Shown here one piece after another: positions 7,779 to 14,465 of a stretch of 16,649 nucleotides of DNA. Below the pieces are notes generated by a model, which ran no database searches, had not been told where the DNA came from, and worked only from the letters and a program-made list of their open reading frames with translations. Numbering within the stretch: the first letter of the stretch is position 1; each line of letters starts with the position of its first letter. The stretch comes from Candidatus Methanomethylophilaceae archaeon. Lineage in GTDB: Archaea; Thermoplasmatota; Thermoplasmata; Methanomassiliicoccales; Methanomethylophilaceae. Position numbers and translations under genes: made by a program. The stretch spans positions 1-16,649 of the forward strand of contig JAFSYZ010000223.1 in NCBI GenBank assembly GCA_017455785.1, in the 5' to 3' direction.

Positions 7779-7835
7779 CCGCTCAGCTCGCCCGTCTCTC
7801 ATCATCCTCAGCTCGAAAAACGATCATCATCGCGG
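7779..7835 (-). ncRNA. C/D box guide RNA (archaeal 2'-O-methylation sRNA)
   Basis: Read on the minus strand, every element of an archaeal C/D sRNA is present in order: CCGC (7835-7832), box C ATGATGA (7830-7824), a 12-nt guide TCGTTTTTCGAG (7823-7812), box D' CTGA (7811-7808), GG, box C' ATGATGA (7805-7799), a second 12-nt guide GAGACGGGCGAG (7798-7787), box D CTGA (7786-7783), then GCGG (7782-7779), which pairs with CCGC as a terminal stem. Both guides have the canonical 12-nt length. A TATA-like TTATC on the minus strand (about 7861-7866) is 26 bp before the predicted 5' end. The D guide is complementary to CGCCCGUC, the conserved 16S rRNA segment around C1400-C1407 (E. coli numbering). The N+5 rule would then place the methyl group on C1402, though guide positions 1 and 2 next to the box do not pair. 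Confidence 0.82.
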
Positions 7836-7840
7836 GTGAA

Positions 7841-7872
7841 CAATGAATGACGTTCATGATGATAACCATTGT
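7841..7872. repeat. Inverted repeats upstream of the C/D sRNA
   Basis: ACAATG (7841-7846) and CATTGT (7867-7872) are inverted copies, extendable by one base each. Inside them, ATGAA and TTCAT (7844-7848 and 7853-7857 region) form a second small dyad. The block covers the putative TATA element of the C/D sRNA, so it could be an operator, or simply chance in AT-rich DNA. Confidence 0.25.
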
Positions 7873-7883
7873 TTCTGTGAAAG

Positions 7884-8072
7884 TAGAAGAAAAGACTGCG
7901 GAGTCGAACCGCCTCCCCCTCCAGGTATAAGGGTGGTCCCCGGGACCGATTCAGTGATATCGTTGTCTTTCTGTTCGCTCTGTCGGTTGCTCGACAGTCC
8001 AAGTCTCCGAACCACGGGATAGGGAACGGTCGACAATCCTTTTCAGGAGTTGTTGTATCTTGGCGATACCCC
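7884..8072 (-). ncRNA. Candidate structured RNA, unidentified
   Basis: This stretch does not code convincingly on either strand but is rich in short perfect hairpins: TCCT-GAAA-AGGA with a GNRA tetraloop on the minus strand (8037-8048), CTGTCG/CGACAG (7980-7985 with 7992-7997), GGTCC/GGACC (7935-7939 with 7943-7947) and GCGG/CCGC around a TTCGACT loop (7898-7912). On the minus strand a TATATA box (8087-8092) lies about 25 bp before a GGGGTATCGCC start region, and the far end runs into a T-rich stretch (7896-7879). The last hairpin resembles a tRNA T-arm, but I could not complete a tRNA. The signatures I know for SRP RNA (helix 8) and RNase P RNA (CR-I) are not there. The ends given are estimates. 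Confidence 0.35.
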
Positions 8073-8086
8073 GTTCGCATTCTCGA

Positions 8087-8092
8087 TATATA
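8087..8092. promoter_or_regulatory. TATATA box, usable in both directions
   Basis: CGATATATAG is nearly symmetric. On the minus strand it would start the candidate RNA at about 8063. On the plus strand it would start a transcript at about 8115, within a long leader of the ATP-grasp gene. Confidence 0.4.
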
Positions 8093-8101
8093 GTCAAATC
8101 C

Positions 8102-8125
8102 CAAAGAAAAAAATCTCTTTCTTTG
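8102..8125. repeat. 8-bp perfect inverted repeat before the ATP-grasp gene
   Basis: CAAAGAAA (8102-8109) and TTTCTTTG (8118-8125) are exact reverse complements with an 8-base spacer. The element lies between the TATATA box and the proximal promoter of the ATP-grasp/exporter operon, so an operator is possible. A plus-strand transcript from the TATATA box would begin inside it. Confidence 0.4.
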
Positions 8126-13742: not shown

Positions 13743-14465
13743 TCATTCCTTCTTCTGGCTCGGATAACTGAGCTTTCCGGTGATGAGTCTGGATGCGTCA
13801 CCGATGACACCCATGATGGTGTTGTACTCGTATTTGCTCGGAACGGCACGACCCATCATCCTCCTGAACATCGCCGATGTGTATTCTTTCCTCTGCGGAG
13901 GATAATCTATGTTGTCCAGGAGTTCATCGAAGAACCTGAACATCCTCTCCTTCTCCTCGTGGTCCGCCGGTTCGGGGGAATCCAACACCTTGCCGAAGAG
14001 TTCGTACATGACTATGGTGGCCGCATGCGACAGGTTGAGGATCGGGTACATGTCACTGGACGGGATATGTACCAGGAGGTCGCATCTTGCGAGCTCGTCC
14101 TGGAGGAGTCCGATGTCCTCCCTTCCGAACAGTATGGCGATCTTCTCGTCGTAATCCCTGACACGTTCGGCGAACTCATGGGCGGAGATGGGGATCCTGA
14201 TGTAGTTCTTGTCACCCTTGGTGGCGACACCGCTGGTCCCTACGACCATGAAGCAACCCTCCAACGCCTCATCGATGCTCTCTACTATCTTCGCGTTTTC
14301 AAGTATGTCGGCACCGTGCTTCGCTCTTCTGTAAGCATCATCACCGATGTCACAGGGATGTATCAGGTATAGTTCGCTGATATCGAAGTTCGCCATCGAT
14401 CTGGCTATAGCGCCTATGTTACCCTCGAACTTCGGTGCTACAAGGATGATACGGACGTTGGTCAT
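13743..14465 (-). CDS. trmJ: tRNA 2'-O-methyltransferase TrmJ (SPOUT/TrmH family)
   Basis: 240 residues with all three SPOUT knot motifs: NIGAIARSMANF (about 16-27, with the catalytic-type Asn and Arg), ILFGREDIGL in the middle, and MYPILNLSHAATIVMYEL as the SAM-binding knot. A helical C-terminal extension of about 80 residues is typical of TrmJ rather than TrmL or TrmH. TrmJ methylates the ribose at position 32 of tRNAs; the archaeal enzyme studied so far prefers C32. The ATG at 14465 has a TATA box about 27 bp upstream and no Shine-Dalgarno sequence, so the mRNA is probably leaderless. That promoter lies inside a long dyad, unusual for a housekeeping tRNA-modification gene. Confidence 0.93.
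   Translation of the reverse strand: MTNVRIILVAPKFEGNIGAIARSMANFDISELYLIHPCDIGDDAYRRAKHGADILENAKIVESIDEALEGCFMVVGTSGVATKGDKNYIRIPISAHEFAERVRDYDEKIAILFGREDIGLLQDELARCDLLVHIPSSDMYPILNLSHAATIVMYELFGKVLDSPEPADHEEKERMFRFFDELLDNIDYPPQRKEYTSAMFRRMMGRAVPSKYEYNTIMGVIGDASRLITGKLSYPSQKKE

Follow-up and report, generated by a model that had tools for sequence, protein, structure and literature searches.

Methylation of the ribose at the position equivalent to E. coli 16S C1402 has been described in bacteria, in eukaryotes and in Pyrococcus. Going by the available portions of the sources, the P. abyssi 16S residue Cm1376 corresponds to E. coli m4Cm1402, yeast Cm1639 and human Cm1703 (PMC7005279), and the same P. 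abyssi base is given as Cm1369 in PMC11542601. The C1402-equivalent nucleotide is guided by snR70 in yeast (PMC8307265) and by U43 in Arabidopsis (PMC11542601), and for the Pyrococcus and Sulfolobus RNA sR12 the predicted target is the counterpart of the yeast snR70 site (Gaspin 2000, as cited in the available text of PMC3511168). Helix 44 predictions are sparse in what is accessible of a seven-species survey (PMC4644070), which names A1408 and G1494 and in whose main text neither 1402 nor 1389, the equivalent number by arithmetic, occurs. In the accessible table of PMC2584109 the H. volcanii entry for 1402 is a dash, and a 2021 review (PMC7994747) presents, in its available part, guide sets of seven archaea with no rRNA position common to all seven.

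The original prediction valued the locus described here as an RNA-guided parallel to bacterial RsmI. That novelty has to be given up, as the available texts of PMC3511168, PMC8307265 and PMC11542601 place the site under RNA guidance in eukaryotes and have an archaeal guide already predicted. The kind of RNA and the C1402 site are already known, but this version persists with small changes in many members of one phylum. Our literature searches found no paper joining Methanomassiliicoccales with the term ‘box sRNA’, and the literature searched held no account of the spread of this sRNA through the phylum Thermoplasmatota.

The window, by which we mean the whole stretch of DNA analysed, is a contig of 16,649 nucleotides from a Candidatus Methanomethylophilaceae archaeon. 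Boxes C, D', C' and D are present in canonical order on its minus strand (Table 1). Both box pairs, the two 12-nt guides, the GG gap between D' and C' and the 4-bp stem can be read directly at 7835-7779, and the direct repeat CTCAGCTCG that had been pointed out is there too. The guides adjoin boxes D and D', and the expectation for the class is about 10-13 nt. The window contains a single match to a strict four-box pattern, and 1500 dinucleotide shuffles of it contain none; a relaxed box pattern also has one match there and 13 over the same 1500 shuffles. A mechanically predicted ORF (7808-8104, minus strand, 98 amino acids, TTG start) overlaps the 5' half of the element. We consider it highly likely, from sequence comparison, that the element is a free-standing gene for an archaeal C/D box sRNA that guides 2'-O-methylation of 16S C1402. 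L7Ae and Nop5-fibrillarin would bind at both kink-turns of the RNA. With the D guide paired to 16S G1401-C1407 (and C1400), fibrillarin would then 2'-O-methylate the base given by the N+5 rule, C1402, which belongs to the decoding/P-site strand of helix 44.

Table 1. Coordinates of the C/D box sRNA and of neighbouring features in the window. G001 is a genome of the window's genus.
Feature	Position	Strand	Basis or remark
C/D box sRNA, whole element	7779..7835	minus	box anatomy, sub-threshold Rfam matches, relatives, stem covariation
Terminal stem, 5' strand CCGC	7832..7835	minus	pairs with GCGG 7779-7782; stem covaries (55 sequences)
Single G between stem and box C	7831	minus	
Box C AUGAUGA	7824..7830	minus	letters and alignment A1
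D' guide UCGUUUUUCGAG	7812..7823	minus	weak candidate target: A612 in the 23S of genome G001
Box D' CUGA	7808..7811	minus	
GG spacer, box D' to box C'	7807-7806	minus	
Box C' AUGAUGA	7799..7805	minus	
D guide GAGACGGGCGAG	7787..7798	minus	core GACGGGCG (7796-7789) complementary to 16S C1400-C1407; G7791 opposite C1402
Box D CUGA	7783..7786	minus	
Terminal stem, 3' strand GCGG	7779..7782	minus	covariation
TATA-like UUAUCAU	7859..7865	minus	placed by homology with 104 aligned loci; own letters off consensus
hps-rraA, bifunctional hexulose-6-phosphate synthase/RraA	6419..7717	minus	61 nt downstream of sRNA

The pattern TGATGANNNACGGGCGNNCTGA, with up to one mismatch allowed, was found in 112 of the 147 genomes of the order, compared with 3 matches for the reversed control. 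We inspected 102 of these 112 loci with their flanks, the remaining 10 being covariance-model matches at the same places; two of the inspected loci (L047 and L134) proved to be chance matches, leaving 110 true ones. Among the latter, the 15 one-mismatch loci carried their mismatch in box C' position 4 (10 loci) or as C to U at guide position -8 (5 loci), and nowhere else. A covariance model, R1, built from 55 sequences, matched 119 of the 147 genomes. One of these matches (G049) is a different C/D sRNA, so that an ortholog is present in 118, eight of them beyond the pattern loci. Among high-quality genomes of the order (at least 90% complete, at most 5% contaminated) 70 of 74 had an R1 match. 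Because ACGGGCG was part of the pattern by which the loci were chosen, and R1 derives from those loci, the counts that concern the guide are partly circular; they also share descent and hence are not independent.

Beyond the order, R1 matched 303 of 389 genomes in a phylum sample that includes the order's own members (183 of 203 at high quality). These matches were inspected in part, and those with E close to 0.01 could represent different C/D sRNAs. Of 40 matches outside the order, hand-picked from those listed, 39 had a GAYGGGC correctly spaced from box D (29 by script and 10 by eye), and the one other locus had GACAGGC. An exact-pattern scan of GTDB genomes gave at least 118 stretches, with a box C upstream in 103 of those listed. 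The 80 titles listed belonged mostly to Methanomassiliicoccales, Methanomethylophilaceae, other Thermoplasmata, DHVE2, Aciduliprofundum and further Euryarchaeota; the seven bacteria among them were all without box C. Conservation is well above chance, and across many members of one archaeal phylum the sRNA appears little changed, as judged by these matches.

The terminal stem covaries. Its covariation score over the 55 sequences was 0.384 against 0.194 in shuffles, none of 500 shuffles reaching the observed value. The inner five pairs fail in only 3 of 275 cells; the outer three of the eight pairs counted fail in around half of the 55 sequences. When 104 loci were aligned on box C, an AT-rich TATA position appeared at -34 to -29 (76-93% A or T); at -40 to -38, which 60-81 loci reach, there was a BRE position rich in A. 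Archaeal transcription starts are placed by a 26-nt rule, and with this placement transcription would start near the terminal stem. Anatomy, shuffle control and conservation in relatives bear out the identification as a C/D box sRNA, and the sequence is very probably a genuine small RNA gene.

With regard to a possible misbinning of the contig, its GC content is 0.52, compared with a mean of 0.51 for the 30 tRNA loci of the same MAG and 0.44 for the G001 locus that holds its 16S (L077), and ribosomal proteins L1 and L10 are encoded on it. A candidate tRNA at 7889-7971 was not supported, with an Rfam tRNA-Sec score of 18.2 bits (gathering 47) and only poor cloverleaves among those listed by a permissive ARAGORN run. 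BLASTN of the segment 7850-8175 gave no match at E≤0.01 against 109 other loci (L036-L065 and L191-L270, excluding L050). Elsewhere in the window, 13743-14465 on the minus strand encodes a protein-only RNA methyltransferase of the TrmJ/YjtD family (TIGR00050, 204.5 bits, over the cut-off).

Several observations on related loci were made alongside. A second conserved C/D sRNA occurs in relatives (L317-L321 and G073) with the D guide GCCCUAUGAGUK, for which the N+5 rule predicts C34 of a CAU anticodon, putatively that of elongator tRNA-Met as in H. volcanii. Between the C and D boxes, the U-U position of the k-turn is altered on both sides in L309-L316 and in L106, L131, L132, L038 and L039. UGACGA or UGAAGA goes with CCGA or CGGA in all eight loci of genera g21-g23 of family f5 (L309-L316), and at D'/C' CCGA goes with UGACGA (three loci) and CAGA with UGAAGA (two loci). 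Against a paired change, C' alone is altered in three loci and C alone in three parsed loci; an apparent D'-only change in L048 looks like a parsing slip. Four loci (L207, L219, L289 and L297) have AACGGGCGGU-CUGA behind an apparent tRNA 3' end with no plain box C upstream; L207 and L219 are titled Altiarchaeales/Altarchaeum, and L207 has an Rfam tRNA match there.

The D guide consists of GAYGGGC, the complement of 16S G1401-C1407, followed by three looser bases before box D. In the 16S of two relatives the base facing guide position -5 aligns to E. coli C1402, and by the N+5 rule the predicted target is thus C1402, as had been proposed; complementarity, alignment and the conserved guide core all agree with it. 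A concern raised at the outset was that guide positions 1-2 do not pair. It is answered by the 111 loci (of 114 given) that our guide parser could read, L047 and L134 having no match and L130 being too short: those two positions vary (AG, AA, GG or AT) whereas GAYGGGC is constant. The ten bases before box D were GACGGGCGAG in 89 loci, GACGGGCGAA in 8, GACGGGCGGG in 6, GATGGGCGAG in 5 and GACGGGCGAT in 3, counts that are partly circular because the loci were picked through the ACGGGCG pattern. Less circular evidence is the prevalence relative to the control, the site of the allowed mismatch and the base at -10. The last lies outside the pattern and is G in all 103 listed loci with an upstream box C but in only 3 of the 15 without one, so that in box C loci an unselected guide base faces C1407 each time. 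Furthermore, C and U at -8 each pair with G1405. In 10 of the 40 distant loci A stands at -3 and 7 bp are left, and the core that persists therefore complements 16S 1401-1407.

The D' guide had been left without a target that could be named. A candidate does exist, although it is not conserved: against the 23S hairpin UUCGUUUCGAAAAACGAA of G001, the sole genome of the window's genus with a 23S match, the D' guide forms 11 Watson-Crick pairs and one G-U pair, and none of 150 shuffled guides reached 11 Watson-Crick pairs. That it would methylate 23S A612 (G001 numbering) in this hairpin is nevertheless somewhat unlikely. Once G-U pairs are counted, 41 of 150 shuffled D' guides also reach 12 pairs, the hairpin is changed in G034, G036 and G037 with the D' guide unchanged, giving no joint change across the family, and the guides of the window's family are U-rich, variable in sequence and inconstant in length (11-14 nt). 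Against the 30 tRNA genes of the same MAG the D' guide had no Watson-Crick run above 8. Most loci of families f3 and f6 have the D' guide AAACCCAGC(U/A), which is complementary to 23S (A)GCUGGGUUUA; its N+5 base would correspond to E. coli G2581, within the peptidyl transferase region. As a second guide, the window's D' guide is probably either specific to its lineage or lapsed. In L105 (G065) and L263 a run of T replaces the D' guide and D' box, and the D half is intact.

At E≤0.001 a fibrillarin match (PF01269) was present in 135 of the order's 147 genomes, and in 132 it exceeded the cut-off. Two of the 74 high-quality genomes, G001 and G111, have no such match and also lack the sRNA, as do 2 of the 72 others (Fisher p 0.002); with over-cut-off matches only, G007, which has the sRNA, joins the fibrillarin-less set (p 0.0065). 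These results point to a functional link between sRNA and fibrillarin, with few genomes involved and p values that ignore kinship. The window's genome is the odd case, having the sRNA and no fibrillarin match at a completeness of 84.9%. None of the four genomes of its genus (G000-G003) gave a fibrillarin match, including G001 at 96% completeness, and the other three also lack the sRNA. Fibrillarin-neighbour ORFs of four relatives found no match at 1e-4 in the window and the 30 tRNA loci of its MAG, which cover a small fraction of the genome. The genus might thus have lost fibrillarin and left an intact but idle gene. We consider this improbable, as the MAG is incomplete and the fibrillarin gene may simply be missing, and as a drifting relic would be expected soon to lose the boxes, the guide core and the 4-bp inner stem, all of which are intact. 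If the genus does lack fibrillarin while this species has kept the guide, another 2'-O-methyltransferase could act in the guide RNP, or the genus could be in the course of losing RNA-guided methylation, the C1402 guide being one of the last to disappear; we give such a state of affairs a low probability as well.

A rival reading is that the D guide's real target is some other RNA and not 16S. The MAG has no SSU or LSU match, and relatives' rRNA was therefore used, together with 30 of the 32 tRNA matches of the MAG itself. Scanning for complements on the sense strands found the C1402 site in 18 of 18 SSU loci, whereas any other site with at least 7 consecutive Watson-Crick pairs was limited to 3 of these at most and to at most 2 of 19 LSU loci; the best run in the tRNA genes was 7. 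With G-U pairs allowed, 23S runs of 10-11 occur in relatives, the commonest in 4 of 19 LSU loci, and in G001 a 23S run of 9 exceeds the 16S site. In 31 of 150 cases a shuffled D guide reached at least 8 Watson-Crick pairs in the 16S and 23S of G001. The 8-bp match in one genome is by itself not significant, and it is conservation that carries the case for the target. With only 7-8 conserved Watson-Crick pairs a different target RNA can be entertained, yet it appears quite improbable: the phylum-wide constancy of the guide needs a constant target, the alternation of C and U at -8 calls for an opposing G such as G1405, and no site in the SSU, LSU or tRNA sequences scanned is comparably conserved.

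The hps-rraA gene is a frequent neighbour in the family and no part of the guide mechanism; it lies within 300 nt downstream on the same strand in 35 of 96 unique loci, a set that includes other families, chance matches and truncated contigs. That the element is instead a kink-turn leader controlling hps-rraA through L7Ae binding is hardly credible, since the same-strand placement within 300 nt downstream in 16 of the 17 loci of the window's family (L048-L065 minus its own; the 17th at 1.4 kb), with hps again downstream and same-strand, at a distance of about 2.5 kb, in L205 and L247 of family f6, is set against the lack of any hps match in the 146-1500 nt examined downstream of L036-L046 (families f2-f5) and against a D guide which is among the most conserved parts and which a leader would not need.

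Under the favoured reading, a C1402 guide would be kept in most of the sampled Thermoplasmatota, including the Methanomassiliicoccales of animal guts, and C1402 would be a site held by RNA in archaea. This would parallel eukaryotes, whereas bacteria use a protein. It offers a clean test of why one ribose needs methylation, with the genus members in which neither sRNA nor fibrillarin was found as a natural loss experiment.

As a molecule the element resembles archaeal C/D box sRNAs such as sR1 (RF01152) and snoPyro_CD (RF00095) in box order and spacing, two guides of about 12 nt, k-turn boxes and terminal stem. Many archaeal C/D families in Rfam match it, sR1 (34 bits, gathering 45) and snoPyro_CD (32.9 bits, gathering 45) scoring highest, but it lies below the gathering threshold of every one, which is compatible with membership of the C/D class as the archaeal sR families are defined per guide. 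The predicted target nucleotide of sR12 is the same as that of the window's D guide, while the consensus of the Rfam sR12 model (RF01147) contains different guides, and the match of that model to the element (20.1 bits, gathering 38) is due mainly to the boxes. SNORD43, snR70 and AtU43 (clan CL00059) guide human C1703, yeast 18S C1639 and Arabidopsis C1645, all equivalent to E. coli C1402 (available texts of PMC8307265, PMC11542601, PMC7005279 and PMC3511168), but are eukaryotic snoRNAs whose homology with archaeal guides is left undecided in the accessible part of PMC3511168. Bacterial RsmI likewise places a 2'-O-methyl group on C1402, but does so as a protein-only enzyme.
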